From positions 829,261 through 893,260 of the forward strand of contig NZ_VTEX01000001.1 in assembly GCF_008180865.1 (NCBI RefSeq): a stretch of DNA of 64,000 nucleotides, given 5' to 3'. Of this stretch, positions 2-31,313 are shown in pieces. The translations under genes and the position numbers were made by a program. Origin of the DNA: Rossellomorea aquimaris. GTDB lineage: Bacteria > Bacillota > Bacilli > Bacillales > Bacillaceae_B. The notes beneath the pieces were generated by a model that saw nothing but the letters and a program-made list of their open reading frames with translations, had not been told where the DNA came from and did not search any database. How positions within the stretch are numbered: position 1 is the stretch's first letter; each line of letters opens with the position of its first letter.

Positions 2-1096
2 TCAGCACTTGTACACTATGGTGCTTATCCGTATGTCTCAAGGGTGATCACCCTTTCCACACCCCATTATGGTTCCCAACTGGCAGATCTTGCTTATAGC
101 AGCTGGGCAGGGTGGTTGACAGGCATTTTGGGAAGTAAGAATGATGCCACCTATTCACTGCAAACAGGGTATATGAGTTATTTCCGCTCTGAAACGGATC
201 ATCATTCGAATGTAAATGGAAATCCAATCTATACGTTTGGCGGGACCAAATGGGGAAGCTTCGGAAGCTCACTATATTGGGGAGGATTGTACCTGGGTAC
301 TTATGGAAGCAACGATGGTGCCGTTACGGTCAATAGTTCAAGACTTCCCTATGGAACAGAGCTGAGAGTGGGGGATTGGAATCATTCGACCATCAAAGAA
401 GGTTCCTCTACCTTTAATTTGTTCAGAAATTATTTGAATGAAGCGACCAATACCTCGGGGTTTAACCCGCAAAGTGAGGTCGAGACAAATGTTGCAGAGA
501 ACGCTGCCTCTTTTGTTAGAGGAGGAGAATATATTGGAAAGAAACATGAAAAGGTCTTTGTAGAACAAGGGGCTCTGTCCGTAACATTTGACTGGATTAG
601 TAATAAGCCTTCGTCACAATTAATCCTAAGAGATCCTGGTCAAAAAACAAGTTCAATCTTCAAGGTGAAAAAGGATGAAAGTGAATACTTTAACGGTGCG
701 TATCACCATACGGTAACCGTAAATGATCCTGCACCAGGGCAGTGGACGGTTGATGCATCGTCGTCTTCAGAAGAAAAATATCTCTTACACGTGTCTTTTG
801 AAAGCACGATGAATGATGTAATGAGCATCCAATTAGCACAGGATGAAATCAATTTGAAAGTTAAGGACAGTAAGGTAAAGCATAAAACTGACATGACAAT
901 TGAATATTACAAGAATGGTAAGTTGAAGAAAAGTAAGGTGAAACCAAAAAATGACTCATTAAATCTTCCGAAGCTTGGAGAAGGAATTTATAACGTGACC
1001 ATTGATGTAGAAGGAAGCAAGGACAAAAATACGTTCCAAAGAACCTTCATTAAAACGATTTACGTTAATGATTCTGGGAAGATTTATGGACAGTAG
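2..1096 (+). CDS. Lipase-like alpha/beta hydrolase, 5' end missing
   Basis: The reading frame is open from base 2, so the real start lies upstream of the window. The visible part begins just after where a GHSMGG-type nucleophile elbow would sit and shows VSRVITLSTPHYGSQLAD, the segment that follows the nucleophile in secreted triacylglycerol lipases and PGAP1-like hydrolases. GSNDGAVTVNSSRLP carries the likely catalytic Asp and WNHSTIKEG the likely His. About 200 residues of beta-rich C-terminal sequence follow the catalytic part (from roughly 500 onward) and look like a pre-peptidase or binding domain. The nucleophile serine and any signal peptide are outside the window, so export is inferred. 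An internal GTG at 44 is not the true start, because the family alignment continues upstream of it. Confidence 0.75.
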   Translation, partial: SALVHYGAYPYVSRVITLSTPHYGSQLADLAYSSWAGWLTGILGSKNDATYSLQTGYMSYFRSETDHHSNVNGNPIYTFGGTKWGSFGSSLYWGGLYLGTYGSNDGAVTVNSSRLPYGTELRVGDWNHSTIKEGSSTFNLFRNYLNEATNTSGFNPQSEVETNVAENAASFVRGGEYIGKKHEKVFVEQGALSVTFDWISNKPSSQLILRDPGQKTSSIFKVKKDESEYFNGAYHHTVTVNDPAPGQWTVDASSSSEEKYLLHVSFESTMNDVMSIQLAQDEINLKVKDSKVKHKTDMTIEYYKNGKLKKSKVKPKNDSLNLPKLGEGIYNVTIDVEGSKDKNTFQRTFIKTIYVNDSGKIYGQ

Positions 1097-3220: not shown

Positions 3221-3637
3221 TTATTTCACGATCATCACTGGGCATTTAGCCCTCTTTGCAACTTTATGGCTTACGCTTCCCAAGACCATTTCCTGAAACA
3301 CATTTAATCCCCGGCTTCCGATGACTACTGCATCGAAGTTGTTTTTGTTTGCATGCTCAACAATGGTTGGCCCCGGTTCTCCGTGTAAAAAGATAATCTC
3401 ATAGTCGATGCCTTCATGCTTGGCTTTTTGTTCTATCATTTGCAGTTTCTGCTTCCGTTTATCTGCTGCATCCAGTCCCCAATGGTGCAGAACATCTTCC
3501 TTGGATTGCTTCCCATCTACAACGTATACAATATCTATTTTAGAGCCTTCATGGCATCTTGCGAGAGCAATCGCTTTTTCTCCTGCCCTTAGAGAGTGTT
3601 CAGATCCGTCTGTTGCTAGAAGAATATGTTTGAACAT
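3221..3637 (-). CDS. UspA-type universal stress protein
   Basis: This is a 138-residue single UspA domain. It has the N-terminal strand with the nucleotide-binding aspartate (LLATDGSEHS) and the C-terminal ATP-binding signature G-x2-G-x9-G-S within GSRGLNVFQEMVLGSVSHK. Such proteins bind ATP, dimerise and support survival under stress. The gene is divergent from a SulP transporter gene and separated from it by a 268-bp promoter region. Usp/SulP neighbours are common in Bacilli, suggesting a link to anion or bicarbonate uptake; that link is inference. Confidence 0.9.
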   Translation of the reverse strand: MFKHILLATDGSEHSLRAGEKAIALARCHEGSKIDIVYVVDGKQSKEDVLHHWGLDAADKRKQKLQMIEQKAKHEGIDYEIIFLHGEPGPTIVEHANKNNFDAVVIGSRGLNVFQEMVLGSVSHKVAKRAKCPVMIVK

Positions 3638-15544: not shown

Positions 15545-15569
15545 TTCATTAATTTAAAATATTTCCAAT

Positions 15570-15840
15570 TAACGATGAAGAGAAAATTATAATGGAGTAA
15601 TTGATGTACAGAGAGCTCTATTAGCTGAAAAAGAGCCATCATGTTCATTATGGTAAAAGACTTGGAGTTATGTATGAAGCTCTTTCAGGCAGTGAATACA
15701 TCGGTTTCTCCCGTTATAGAGATAGGATATACAATGTATCCAAAGAGGTTGGTATGGTGACATGCCAACAAACTGAGGTGGTACCGCGAAAAATAAACTC
15801 TCGTCCTCAAGAATTATTTCTTGAGAATGAGAGTTTTTTA
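15570..15840 (+). promoter_or_regulatory. T-box leader upstream of a GNAT gene
   Basis: The canonical T-box sequence AGGTGGTACCGCG is at 15776-15788, followed by a terminator (AAACTCTC at 15795-15802 with GAGAGTTT at 15829-15836, then T residues). Upstream are GATGAAGAG, AGTA and CAGAGAGC with the stem I apical element. T-boxes sense uncharged tRNA and usually precede aminoacyl-tRNA synthetase or amino-acid genes. The specifier triplet could not be fixed; the 3' side of the specifier loop reads TGTTCATTATGG, and ATT or TAT are candidates. Confidence 0.88.
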
Positions 15841-15864
15841 TTTTGATAAAGAGGAGTGTTTTGT

Positions 15865-16425
15865 ATGAACCCTGTATTACTTGAAGTTCCACCAGTGTTA
15901 GAAACGGAGAGGTTAGTACTAAGAATGCCTCAGCCAGGTGATGGCAGGTCAGTAAATGCAGCCATTAAGGCTTCACTATCTGAATTAAAGCCGTGGTTAG
16001 GATTTGCACAAAATGACCCTTCAGTAGAAGATACGGAAACGAACACCCGTGAAGCTCATGCGAAATTTCTAACAAGGGAAAGTTTGAGGTACCTCATCTT
16101 CCGAAAAGATACAAATGAATTCGTCGGTTCAACAGGCTTTCACAACATTGAATGGAGTGTTCCAAAATTTGAAATCGGTTATTGGATTGATACCAGAATG
16201 AGTGGGCATGGTTACATGATGGAAGCAGTTGGGAAATTGACCGATTTCGCCTTAACTGAATTAAAAGGAAAAAGAGTGGAAATCAGGTGTGAATCCACAA
16301 ATGGGAGAAGCAGGAGAATTCCTGAAAGGCTTGGCTATATACTGGAAGGAATTCTGCGCAATGAGGATCTTTCGGTTGATGGGGAACGGTTAACCGATAC
16401 GTGTGTGTATGGAAAATATAAATAG
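15865..16425 (+). CDS. RimJ/RimL-type GNAT acetyltransferase under T-box control
   Basis: The 186-residue protein belongs to the ribosomal-protein/aminoacyl-type GNAT group: LETERLVLRMPQPGDG at the N-terminus, then EIGYWIDTRMSGHGYMMEA over the acetyl-CoA site, then RRIPERLGY. AGAGGAG (15850-15856) points to the ATG at 15865 rather than the overlapping GTG at 15856. Its only visible control is the T-box, so expression should rise when one tRNA is uncharged. Substrates of this group include ribosomal protein N-termini and small amines; the T-box suggests an amino-acid or translation-related one (inference). The stop lies inside a 44-bp palindrome. Confidence 0.88.
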   Translation: MNPVLLEVPPVLETERLVLRMPQPGDGRSVNAAIKASLSELKPWLGFAQNDPSVEDTETNTREAHAKFLTRESLRYLIFRKDTNEFVGSTGFHNIEWSVPKFEIGYWIDTRMSGHGYMMEAVGKLTDFALTELKGKRVEIRCESTNGRSRRIPERLGYILEGILRNEDLSVDGERLTDTCVYGKYK

Positions 16426-17217: not shown

Positions 17218-17354
17218 GGGAACATCTCCTTTAATATATTTAGAAGATTATACCATATGTATGTTGCTTCTTTCTAGGCTTTTTATCATAATGTGATTCA
17301 ACCGAATTTATTTTATAATAGAAGAACGAACAACAACTTAAAGGAGGTGGTGAC

Positions 17355-17444
17355 ATGGTAATGAAAACAAACTTACCAGAGTCCAAAGCGTCTCATGCAA
17401 AGCCTATTATTAGAAAGGCGATACTTTGCATGGGGGGACGCTGA
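17355..17444 (+). CDS. Putative 29-residue leader peptide
   Basis: The ATG at 17355 follows AAAGGAGGTGGTGA, one of the strongest ribosome sites in the window, and is followed by 29 sense codons (MVMKTNLPESKASHAKPI and on to a terminal GGR) and TGA. Its codons run through the 5' arm and loop of a long hairpin, and the stop is at that hairpin's end. This arrangement is that of the leader peptides of translational attenuators in erm-type resistance genes. The peptide itself was not recognised. Translation is inferred only from the ribosome site. Confidence 0.55.
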   Translation: MVMKTNLPESKASHAKPIIRKAILCMGGR

Positions 17445-17519
17445 CTGATCGCCCTTAAAGTTCATTTCTAGTAAGTCGGCTTTGCACCTTATTTACTTTA
17501 TTAATCAGAAAATAAGGGG
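17387..17519 (+). promoter_or_regulatory. Attenuator-like leader with mutually exclusive hairpins
   Basis: Structure 1 pairs AGCGTC with GACGCT (17387-17392, 17437-17442) and CATGCAAAG with CTTTGCATG (17394-17402, 17424-17432). Structure 2 pairs TGCAAAGCC with GGCTTTGCA (17396-17404, 17478-17486) and TAGAAA with TTTCTA (17411-17416, 17465-17470). The two use the same 5' segment and exclude each other. A third stem, CCTTATTT with AAATAAGG (17487-17494, 17510-17517), covers the AAGGGG ribosome site of the gene at 17529. Confidence 0.7.
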
Positions 17520-17528
17520 CTGACTGAA

Positions 17529-17795
17529 ATGAAATATGTGAAAGCTGAGAGTGTTTTACCACCATCGCTTCTTGTTGAAGTCCAGAAATATGTACAGGGG
17601 GAAACTCTTTATATTCCTAAACCTAAGGTGAAATACCGAAAATGGGGTAGCCGTTCTGGAAGTAGAAAAGAAATTGATGAACGAAATGGTGAGATCAAAG
17701 AGGCTTTTTTGAATGGAAAGACGATTCAAGAATTAGCCGAACATTATTATCTTTCAACGGAAACAATTAAGAAAATAGTGTATAGAAAGCGCTGA
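17529..17795 (+). CDS. CD3324-family small helix-turn-helix protein
   Basis: The 88-residue protein has the CD3324-type start MKYVKAESVLPPSLLVEVQ followed by VQGETLYIPK and WGSRSGSRKEIDERN, then a C-terminal helix-turn-helix (TIQELAEHYYLSTETIKKIV). Its family is common in Firmicutes and of unknown role; DNA binding is probable. The ATG follows AAGGGG, which is buried in a predicted hairpin of the leader. The preceding short ORF and alternative stems suggest control at translation. The stop codon lies in the terminator stem. Confidence 0.8.
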   Translation: MKYVKAESVLPPSLLVEVQKYVQGETLYIPKPKVKYRKWGSRSGSRKEIDERNGEIKEAFLNGKTIQELAEHYYLSTETIKKIVYRKR

Positions 17796-17815
17796 TGATT
17801 ATGTCAGTGCTTTTT
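17786..17815 (+). terminator. Terminator of the CD3324-like gene
   Basis: AGCGCTGA pairs with TCAGTGCT, followed by TTTTT to 17815. The 5' arm contains the stop codon. Confidence 0.8.
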
Positions 17816-17906
17816 ATCTTGTATAGATTGATTCTGAACCAAACTCTACATATATTTTTGACATGTACCGGTTTATAGTAAAAATAGGGTTGCACGGAAT
17901 AACTGT

Positions 17907-17969
17907 GCTCCTTGACTCATCTTAAAAAGCCGATTTAAGATGATGATAATGACAAATGTTTTTAGGAGC
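17907..17969 (+). promoter_or_regulatory. Possible ribosome-site masking structure of the FusB-type gene
   Basis: GCTCCT (17907-17912) is complementary to AGGAGC (17964-17969), which contains the ribosome site of the next gene. Between them CATCTTAAA (17918-17926) and TTTAAGATG (17934-17942) form a perfect 9-bp hairpin. GCAC/GTGC at 17892 and 17905 could compete for the masking strand. Confidence 0.45.
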
Positions 17970-17976
17970 GATTAAC

Positions 17977-18615
17977 ATGGAACCATTTATTCGAAATGAT
18001 CAATATAATTTCATAACGTATCAGACTCAAGTACTGATCAATGGATATTCAACAGTGAATGATCTAGGTGTCCTTCAAGCTTTGAAAGGACTTGTGAAAG
18101 ATAAGGTGACAAATTTGTTCGATGAACTGTCTCAAGCTCAACTGCACATACTTGATCCAATCGGGAATATCAGGGATTCTGACCAGGCGGAGGATTATTT
18201 AATTGGATTAAAACCTTATGTAATTCCATTTCCAACTGTTTCTGAAGCCTCATTAAAAAAATTATTCCCCAAAGTGAAAAAACTTAAGTCACCTGATTGG
18301 GGAAATATCGATTTCAGGGATCTCTCCTATTTAGGCTGGAATGATTACGGACAGGAGCGAAAATATATTGTCGCTATGCATGAGGGTAAATTGAAAGGAT
18401 TTAAGGGTACCTTCAAAAGCAGCAGCAAGAAGGGAATTTGCACGATTTGCAATACCTTTGGAAGCATCGGATTTTATATGTCTGAATCGAAAACTTCATC
18501 TCAAGGAACCTTTGTGAAGAAAGGGAATTACGTCTGCCAGGATAGTCATGAGTGTAATGAAAAGCTTAAAGACAAAGAGAAATTGGATGATTTTATTCAG
18601 AGAATTAATCATTAG
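17977..18615 (+). CDS. FusB/FusC-family EF-G-binding protein
   Basis: The 212-residue protein matches FusB/FusC proteins: an N-terminal helical part, the central IDFRDLSYLGWNDYGQERKY region, and a C-terminal treble-clef zinc site with Cys155, Cys158, Cys187 and His191 or Cys193 (CTIC ... CQDSHEC). In staphylococci these proteins bind EF-G and free it from fusidic-acid-stalled ribosomes. AGGAG at 17964-17968 selects the ATG at 17977 rather than an upstream in-frame codon at 17956. Chromosomal homologues in Bacillaceae may be housekeeping or low-level resistance factors. An RlmN-type gene follows. Confidence 0.85.
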   Translation: MEPFIRNDQYNFITYQTQVLINGYSTVNDLGVLQALKGLVKDKVTNLFDELSQAQLHILDPIGNIRDSDQAEDYLIGLKPYVIPFPTVSEASLKKLFPKVKKLKSPDWGNIDFRDLSYLGWNDYGQERKYIVAMHEGKLKGFKGTFKSSSKKGICTICNTFGSIGFYMSESKTSSQGTFVKKGNYVCQDSHECNEKLKDKEKLDDFIQRINH

Positions 18616-18776: not shown

Positions 18777-19847
18777 ATGGAAAAGAAATCCATATACGGA
18801 TTAACATTAGATCAACTGACAACATGGTTGGTCGAGCACGGTCAAAAGAAATTCCGTGCCGCCCAGGTGTGGGATTGGTTATATAAAAAGAGAGTGACAA
18901 ACTTCGCGGATATGAAGAATCTGAACGCGGACTGTGTACAATTGCTTGACGAACACTTCTATCTTCATACACTCACTCAAGAGGTTAAACAGGAATCCAA
19001 GGACGGCACCATTAAATTCCTGTTCAAGCTTGAAGATGGTAACTTAATTGAAACGGTTCTAATGCGATTCAATTATGGACTAAGTGTTTGTGTGACGACG
19101 CAGGTCGGGTGCAACATCGGTTGTACATTCTGTGCAAGTGGACTGCTGAAGAAGAACCGTGATCTTTCAAGCGGAGAAATCGTAGAACAGATCATGAACG
19201 TTCAACATCACTTGGACGAAGCAGGAAATGGGGAACGTGTCAGTCATATCGTCGTAATGGGGATCGGTGAACCATTCGATAACTACGATAACATGATGGA
19301 CTTCTTCCGAGTAGTGAATGACCAAAAAGGTCTTTCCATCGGAGCTCGTCACATCACCGTTTCAACAAGTGGTCTGGCAGATAAGATTTATAAATTTGCC
19401 GACGAAAACATTCAAATCAACCTGGCCGTTTCCTTGCACGCACCAAACAATGAATTGCGTACGAAGATTATGAAAATCAACCGTGCGTACCCGTTAGAGA
19501 AATTAATGCCAGCAATTGATTACTATTTAGAAAAAACAAATCGACGCATTACCTTTGAGTATATCTTGTTAAGTGATGTGAATGATCATAAAGAAGAAGC
19601 CATTCAGCTGGCCAAACTGCTGAAAAACAAGCGTCACCTTTCTTATGTGAACTTGATACCTTATAACCCGGTTGACGAACACAACCAATATCAAAGAAGT
19701 ACGAAAGAAGCGATTGTCGAATTCTACGGTACATTACTTGAACATGGAATCAATTGTGGAGTCCGTGTGGAACAAGGGACGGACATTGATGCAGCTTGCG
19801 GTCAGTTAAGAAGTAAGCAGATCAAGAAGGATAAGGTTAAATCTTAA
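18777..19847 (+). CDS. rlmN: RlmN-type 23S rRNA A2503 methyltransferase, second-type paralogue
   Basis: The 356-residue radical-SAM enzyme has the CxxxCxxC cluster (Cys112, Cys116, Cys119 in [12 protein letters not shown]) and the C-terminal substrate-relay Cys341 in DIDAACGQL. RlmN methylates C2 of A2503 of 23S rRNA and of A37 in some tRNAs. The sequence, as I recall the family, is closer to the Enterococcus/Lactobacillales RlmN type ([30 protein letters not shown]) than to the usual Bacillus YloN type. It is also not in the prpC-prkC neighbourhood, so it is probably an extra copy. It is not clearly Cfr. Confidence 0.85.
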
Positions 19848-31065: not shown

Positions 31066-31089
31066 AAATGAAAATTCATAATCATACAT

Positions 31090-31313
31090 GTCATGATAGG
31101 AATGAGTAGTGACTTATCTCCCTGGTGAAGAGAGCTGATGGCTGGTGGGAATCAGTACAAAGATAAGCGCGAATTACCTCCTTAAACATTCTCTGTGAAC
31201 CTTTCTTAGTAGCAGAGAACGGCCGATCCGTTATCCGTATGAAGTGGAAGAGAAATCTTCAATGAGGGTGGTACCGCGTTAACCACGTCCCTTTTTTTGG
31301 GGCGTGGTTTTTT
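31090..31313 (+). promoter_or_regulatory. T-box leader of tyrS
   Basis: The T-box sequence GGTGGTACCGCG ends at 31277. It is followed by a terminator (AACCACGTCCC with GGGGCGTGGTT, then T residues). Stem I contains GAGTAGTG, AAGAGAGC and the pairing GACTTATCT with AAGATAAG. The specifier loop reads CGAATTACC, with the Tyr codon TAC at 31175-31177, in agreement with the gene controlled. Confidence 0.92.

Follow-up and report, generated by a model that had tools for sequence, protein, structure and literature searches.

Organization of the locus

The window, by which we mean the whole 64,000-nucleotide stretch of Rossellomorea aquimaris DNA analyzed here, contains a leader followed by three genes, all on the plus strand. 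A −10 box for the leader transcript (TATAAT, 17314..17319) is predicted from the sequence; among leaders in general, TTTATAAT/TATAATAA rank with the most frequent 8-mers on the 5′ side, below the ribosome-site words. The Shine-Dalgarno region AAAGGAGGTGGTGA (17340..17353) stands directly before a short leader ORF of 29 aa (17355..17444, from the ORF call; MVMKTNLPESKASHAKPIIRKAILCMGGR), so that the short ORF with a strong ribosome site on which the original prediction was built is indeed present. The next ribosome site, AAGGGG at 17514..17519, recognized from sequence and folding, belongs to a CD3324-family gene of 88 aa (17529..17795; NF040785, 112 bits against a cut-off of 65), whose product is a Mor-like helix-turn-helix protein and a predicted activator. 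At the 3′ end of CD3324, a terminator-like hairpin, AAAGCGCTGA/TCAGTGCTTT followed by TT, can be seen by eye at 17786..17813.

Beyond this hairpin lies an operator-like 36-bp dyad (17818..17853), which scores 21.3 bits on the plus strand and 20.5 bits, one base off, on the minus strand. A predicted −10 box, TATAGT (17874..17879), follows 22 nt past the CAT of the dyad and precedes a FusB-type gene for a protein binding elongation factor G (EF-G) (17977..18615; PF07299, 97.1 bits; PF16571, 35.7 bits). As the start of this gene we took the ATG that follows TAGGAGCG; the longest possible ORF begins at 17956. Its EF-G-binding_N domain and its treble-clef C-terminal domain, FBP_C, both score above the Pfam cut-offs, and the gene stays below the NCBIfam cut-offs of the named fusB/C/D/F resistance models (137.2 versus 375 bits for fusB). 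The third gene is rlmN (18777-19847; TIGR00048, 434.6 bits, cut-off 290). The profiles thus bear out the gene order of the original prediction, CD3324, FusB type and RlmN type; the dyad between the first two, and loci in which the leader stands directly before FusB, had been overlooked.

The window also contains two T-box leaders, at 15566-15811 (94.8 bits) and 31084-31295 (138.6 bits). The former lies directly 5′ of a GNAT acetyltransferase ORF (15856-16425). A T-box ahead of a GNAT acetyltransferase gene is an unexpected pairing.

A leader RNA with mutually exclusive, covarying helices

The leader region 17325-17540 folds at −60.1 kcal/mol, a value better than those of all 200 dinucleotide shuffles (z −3.98). 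Five helices were compared with related leaders. H1, the presumed OFF helix, joins 17392-17402 to 17424-17434 by 11 bp including one G-U pair. B1, the presumed ON helix of 9 bp, joins 17396-17404 (TGCAAAGCC) to the exactly complementary 17478-17486 (GGCTTTGCA). Both helices use 17396-17402, within the strand that we call segment 1, and are therefore mutually exclusive. Nested in B1 are B2 (17409-17416 with 17465-17472), four pairs of which are changed on both sides in alignment A1, and B3 (17417-17422 with 17448-17453). Finally, a ribosome-site hairpin (17487-17493 with 17511-17517) takes in the start of AAGGGG and would hide the CD3324 site. Like B1, this third stem agrees with the original prediction, which had also paired 17396-17404 with 17424-17432; that pairing is real, and its register was two bases off.

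We measured covariation in a set of 254 elements, which was reduced to 149 at <80% identity and to 144 carrying the segment-1 string. Together with the window these make an alignment of 145 rows, aligned by sequence alone and compared with shuffles whose statistics ignore kinship. H1 is 98.9% paired, with 26 double-changed cells versus 2.3 in shuffles, and B3 is 93.4% paired, with 23 versus 3.6. The ribosome-site hairpin is 89.0% paired, with 16 versus 5.2. B1 has seven double-changed cells versus 1.2, its percentage of paired cells being barely above that of the shuffles (95.8 versus 95.5). For each of these four helices, none of 200 shuffles reached the observed number of double changes. B2 is weak: 72.3% paired, 37 versus 25.3 double-changed cells, and three of 200 shuffles as high. 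The inner pairs of H1 show no support in the same 145 rows (three double-changed cells versus 3.4; 141/200 shuffles as high). When the partner columns were slid, the paired cells of these helices fell to 29-71% (10% in one case); slid columns can equal or exceed the observed double changes, as for B1 (13 at −2), the ribosome-site hairpin (18 at +2) and B2 (54 at +2). In the first 30 sequences, five pairs of structure B were changed on both sides, a score reached by 0/500 shuffles, while structure A was nearly invariant and without covariation, 446/500 shuffles reaching its score. The heptamer GCAAAGC is exact in 29 of the first 30 loci and differs by one base in the remaining one (L011).

H1 and B1 cannot coexist, yet both are kept paired in divergent sequences, which is the signature of an RNA switch. 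The original prediction had named compensatory changes in homologous leaders as a check on its attenuator, and such changes were found when the helices were compared with shuffles. As an RNA architecture, the attenuator is thus well supported. A search against Rfam 15 gave no match at the gathering threshold in the leader, and at E≤1 two matches in four loci, both far below gathering; these results ruled out a T-box or another Rfam family.

A short ORF accompanies this RNA throughout. Keeping the best of three frames per element, we found an ORF that reaches segment 1 in all 144 dereplicated elements. These ORFs start with ATG (103), TTG (27) or GTG (14), and 107 have a Shine-Dalgarno match of at least five bases, the other 37 having fewer than five. 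Across segment 1, 115 elements read HAKP and 26 read SCKA followed by a stop; the remaining three use a third frame that is doubtful. Given that two reading frames run over one unchanged RNA, the helices do not simply result from the conservation of a single peptide, and purely peptide-driven conservation is ruled out.

The strong conservation of the RNA sequence, which extends to the elements of the second frame, would also suit a leader that senses a small molecule or a protein through the RNA itself, the short ORF being incidental; the weak start codons and Shine-Dalgarno matches of some elements point the same way. Against such a sensor, the ORF starts 36-45 nt before segment 1 in 116 of the 144 elements, at exactly 42 nt in 65 of them, and the genes behind the leader are mostly of translation-rescue or resistance type. 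The invariance of the RNA is moreover expected because one segment must pair with two others. We regard ligand sensing as improbable and the short ORF as probably translated.

To model the switch, we scanned the leader with a ribosome-sized mask and read out the cost of opening the ribosome site. The mean cost reached its minimum with the P-site about 15 nt ahead of segment 1 and its maximum with the ribosome on segment 1, both among 172 elements and in a dereplicated scan that covered 72 of the 144 elements and gave values for 71. In these 71, the predicted cost was 7.28 kcal/mol without a ribosome; placing the P-site 15 nt ahead of segment 1 brought it to 5.97 kcal/mol, a decrease seen in 50 elements, and placing it 9 nt past the start of segment 1 brought it to 8.13 kcal/mol, an increase seen in 41. 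With B1 forbidden, an early stall gained 0.52 instead of 1.31 kcal/mol, and the cost rose at nearly every upstream position. When either H1 or B1 was enforced, opening was cheaper with B1 in 59 of the 89 computable elements (of 144). In the window itself, the predicted cost was 6.7 kcal/mol with no ribosome present. A ribosome at codons 8-10 lowered it to 4.1-5.1, one at codons 13-14 to 3.4-4.0 and one at codons 25-30 to 4.7-5.0; at codons 16-24 it rose to 8.0-9.2. The representative nearest to the window, L031, deviates: its site is most open with the ribosome on segment 1 (3.2 kcal/mol).

These calculations suggest, by a modest effect, that H1 is the OFF and B1 the ON helix: B1 is predicted to cheapen the opening of the ribosome site, and the position of the ribosome to decide between the two. 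They disfavor an OFF role for structure B by stacking. The attenuator logic of the original prediction hence draws its support from covariation in relatives and, modestly, from folding.

The folding scan also bears on what might halt the ribosome. In the HAKP frame (n=89, Shine-Dalgarno match of at least five bases), the residues 8 to 5 codons ahead of segment 1 loosely follow an L-[PS]-x-[ST] motif: at the respective positions, 47 elements have L, 70 have P or S and 59 have T or S. These residues coincide with the P-site positions at which the ribosome site is most open on average. The short ORF might accordingly encode a drug-specific arrest peptide that responds to one drug class, as opposed to slowed ribosomes generally. 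We rate this as a secondary possibility, given how loose the motif is and its absence from the SCKA frame, which precedes many FusB genes.

Premature termination of transcription, in place of control of translation, would be a further way for the leader to act, and this is how related stress leaders, that of whiB7 among them, are described as working (PMC11550727). A terminator scan reported no terminator-like site in our leader, whose last hairpin holds the ribosome site and has no T run after it. The scan is of limited sensitivity because it also missed the hairpin behind CD3324 (17786..17813). Even so, we judge a termination mechanism to be very unlikely, and control of translation remains our preferred reading.

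CD3324 and the dyad before its neighbor gene

Of the 101 genomes searched, 46 encode the CD3324 protein. It matches the Mor family PF08765 marginally (26.0 bits, cut-off 24.9); NF040785 and Mor are the only families listed for it, with no WhiB-type match. Its predicted structure (pLDDT 81.6, pTM 0.49) has phage Mu C (E 0.12) and Mor (E 0.19) as its top two matches among solved structures, at a TM of about 0.4, and no match reaches 0.001. When solved structures were searched with a sequence profile, neither a Mor nor a C chain was listed. The idea that CD3324 corresponds to Bacillus subtilis YraL was dropped, the literature found not fitting it; a literature search on CD3324 returned nothing relevant. 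The protein is predicted to be a Mor-type activator of its neighbor gene.

The dyad, with the consensus TATGNNGAGTTTGTTTCTTAATCATTTTCTNCATTT, lies between CD3324 and the next gene. Counting sites of at least 12 bits within 450 nt, we found it in 54 of 63 CD3324-FusB loci and 15 of 23 CD3324-other loci (69/86), at a median of 43 nt past the CD3324 stop; 17 of the 86 CD3324 loci are without it. At a 10-bit threshold and with the 5′ cut boundary set by a CD3324 stop read one base out of frame, it was present in 58 of the 63 CD3324-FusB loci. Loci in which the leader directly precedes FusB contained none (0/53, 800 nt searched). Upstream of the leaders, no site of at least 10 bits was detected (0/86 and 0/53), nor in mononucleotide shuffles (0/315). 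In ten repeats of a hold-out analysis, training on one half and testing on the other recovered 27-29 of 32 sites versus 0/32 in shuffled sequences, one known site serving as the seed, and fits on shuffled sets reached 8.5-9.5 bits versus 30.4 on the real set. The window dyad, at 21.3 bits, scores below the median of 34.3; the second-best site in the window scores 9.1. In its own genome, the genus-specific dyad pattern matches once, at this locus, with up to three mismatches allowed and more divergent sites missed. The best −10-like hexamer stands exactly 22 nt past the CAT of the dyad in 44 of the 69 loci, and there is no conserved −35.

Given that the dyad lies between CD3324 and FusB, CD3324 probably activates the FusB-type gene; we infer that the protein binds the dyad and turns on its neighbor. 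As a DNA architecture, this relay is well supported. The arrangement resembles that of the phage Mu activators Mor and C, members of PF08765, and of the Mu promoter Pm: the promoter has a −10, with the dyad where the −35 would be. At Pm, as described in PMC4390567, the site of the Mor dimer stands in for the −35 and spans 16 bp centered at −43.5, whereas our dyad spans about 33 bp centered, by our own count, near −51. Mor and C are phage proteins, whereas CD3324 is here encoded in bacterial chromosomes.

CD3324 might instead be a repressor or autoregulator and the dyad a site of repression, the leader still being an attenuator; stalling would then lower expression of the neighbor. The direction of CD3324 control is a prediction, and a TTGACA hexamer does occur near the window dyad, in the sigma-70-like sequence TTGACA-16-AAAAAT (10/12). 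Repression nevertheless fits poorly with the placement of the dyad, upstream of the −10 and mostly exactly 22 nt from it, where a −35 would stand, as at Pm, which Mor activates (PMC4390567), and with a family match that is to activators. In addition, opening a leader that stands directly before FusB would raise FusB, and the same sign is expected via the relay. We therefore see little likelihood in repression by CD3324.

With activation as the preferred direction, the leader is probably a translational attenuator in which an early stall moves the RNA from H1 to B1 and releases CD3324, a Mor-type activator that acts on the FusB-type promoter via the dyad. A ribosome slowed early in the short ORF would shift the RNA from H1 to B1; B1, once formed, would open the CD3324 start site and allow CD3324 to be made; CD3324 would then bind the dyad and turn on the FusB-type promoter of the neighbor gene. 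Where the leader stands directly before FusB, the relay step would fall away; those loci lack the dyad. The signal would presumably be ribosomes slowed by a drug or by stress. We infer responsiveness to antibiotics with help from the genes behind the leader, FusB following directly in 55 of 179 elements.

Distribution, known counterparts and other outputs

The leader was present at all 30 CD3324 loci first fetched. A covariance model, R1, then gave matches in 139 of the 397 genomes searched in the order and in 96 of the 398 searched in the class, two overlapping sets whose places were fetched in part; the model was built from CD3324 leaders and favors close relatives. A pattern scan of named genomes yielded at least 118 stretches, and among the matches listed, 75 of 80 loci match R1. 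The R1-matching named loci span at least 20 genera, including Bacillus, Peribacillus, Metabacillus, Brevibacillus, Paenibacillus and Cohnella. Of the 179 elements examined, 118 lie directly 5′ of CD3324 and the above-mentioned 55 directly 5′ of FusB. The other six comprise L193, with FusB 223 nt on, and five without a match to the two profiles. Among the matches listed, 41 of the 75 named elements precede CD3324, with FusB next in 34, and the other 34 directly precede FusB, an arrangement that dominates in Paenibacillus (22/23) and Cohnella (8/8). We found no description of this leader or of CD3324 in the open literature searched, a search that most subscription papers fell outside.

L141, one of the five elements without a match to the two profiles, has the leader (401-541) directly before a SpoU-type rRNA methylase-like gene (539-1279, sub-cut-off matches) and no CD3324 match. 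In L160, two equal-scoring leaders (2560-2696 and 3325-3461, minus strand) lie 765 bases apart in one genome.

The leaders of erm, cat and vmlR exchange hairpins in a manner that depends on stalling. They act on the resistance gene itself, whereas a regulator intervenes in most elements examined here. A leader working as a FusB translational attenuator is known from plasmid pUB101, where, according to the accounts in PMC12493156 and PMC12008383, ribosomes stalled by fusidic acid on the leader refold the mRNA and free the ribosome site of fusB. The likeness is one of function. R1 does not match the pUB101 leader (best 6.5 bits, E 3.5), and by this covariance model homology is ruled out; by eye, the sequence and the short ORF differ as well, and unlike the window, the pUB101 stretch has neither CD3324 nor the relay. 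The control of chromosomal FusB homologues "remains unknown" in the words of the review PMC12493156, and our findings suggest a mode for it.

The closest functional analogue is actinobacterial whiB7/wblC, where, as described in PMC11550727, the leader carries a uORF, detects inhibitors of translation and governs a transcription factor for resistance genes. Both systems place a uORF leader ahead of a regulator gene; whiB7/wblC uses termination and a WhiB protein, whereas here control would be of translation and the regulator Mor-like. The WhiB7 regulon comprises many target promoters; in the R. aquimaris genome, a single genus-specific pattern, which more divergent sites would escape, found one nearby dyad. 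The uORFC-6-1 motif, found mainly in Bacillales upstream of hflX, has been proposed as a stalled-ribosome sensor for a ribosome-rescue gene (PMC8632094). It shares a uORF leader with our element, a likeness known from its description as opposed to sequence comparison, and the gene differs (hflX); a word search of the main text of PMC8632094 gave no mention of fusB or elongation factor G.

We lean, by a small margin of confidence, toward a Bacillales counterpart of WhiB7 that can be plugged in before different genes: a cassette of leader, Mor-type activator and promoter, with a shortcut to FusB and a second leader family for CD3324 paralogues. If this is true, the cassette has moved before whatever protects ribosomes or detoxifies an inhibitor, its outputs being EF-G rescue, rRNA methylase, acetyltransferase, kinase, hydrolase and efflux. 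The leader and the relay themselves would show that induction in Bacilli can run through a circuit of two steps that senses translation, with outputs that draw attention to chromosomal genes acting against inhibitors of the ribosome. They also offer a testable function for CD3324, a widespread small-protein family of unknown role.

Regarding these outputs, we typed 17 proteins, hand-picked from 46 loci, by Pfam and NCBIfam. Pfam placed alpha/beta hydrolases (L089, L285), a beta-lactamase-fold hydrolase (L159), a GNAT acetyltransferase (L161), APH-type kinases (L149, L151, L153) and an MFS transporter (L187) behind CD3324. The corresponding gene is a SpoU methylase at L136, with a dyad of 11.8 bits, slightly below the cut, and a nucleotidyltransferase at L111 and a sensor-kinase-like gene at L133, both without a dyad. 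None of the NCBIfam resistance-gene models reached its cut-off among the typed proteins, which are therefore assigned to families only and not to resistance functions. Seven loci from genomes of about 7 Mb (L111-L114, L116, L118 and L119) have a nucleotidyltransferase-like gene after CD3324 and no dyad match, the best score being 6.0 bits; a different site may serve the CD3324 of these genomes. One of them, L116, contains the start of a tetracycline ribosomal-protection-like GTPase gene (2-769, minus strand) about 1.7 kb behind the leader, where the stretch ends.

Seventeen loci of lower-scoring CD3324 paralogues (L342-L358) lack the FusB dyad (best score 1.9). By eye, 12 of them carry a second leader, unrelated in sequence, which is missing or doubtful at L346, L348, L350, L352 and L358. 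This second leader has a short ORF such as MGKYPNLKLFSC followed by a stop, a GCAAAGGCTGCT/AGCGGTCTTTGC-like pair before the ribosome site and, again by eye, pairings that look exclusive; an acetyltransferase-like (GNAT-like) gene often lies behind it. Separately, in the Listeria record L330, a FusB homologue has a different short ORF and a long hairpin upstream of position 1507, as seen by eye.
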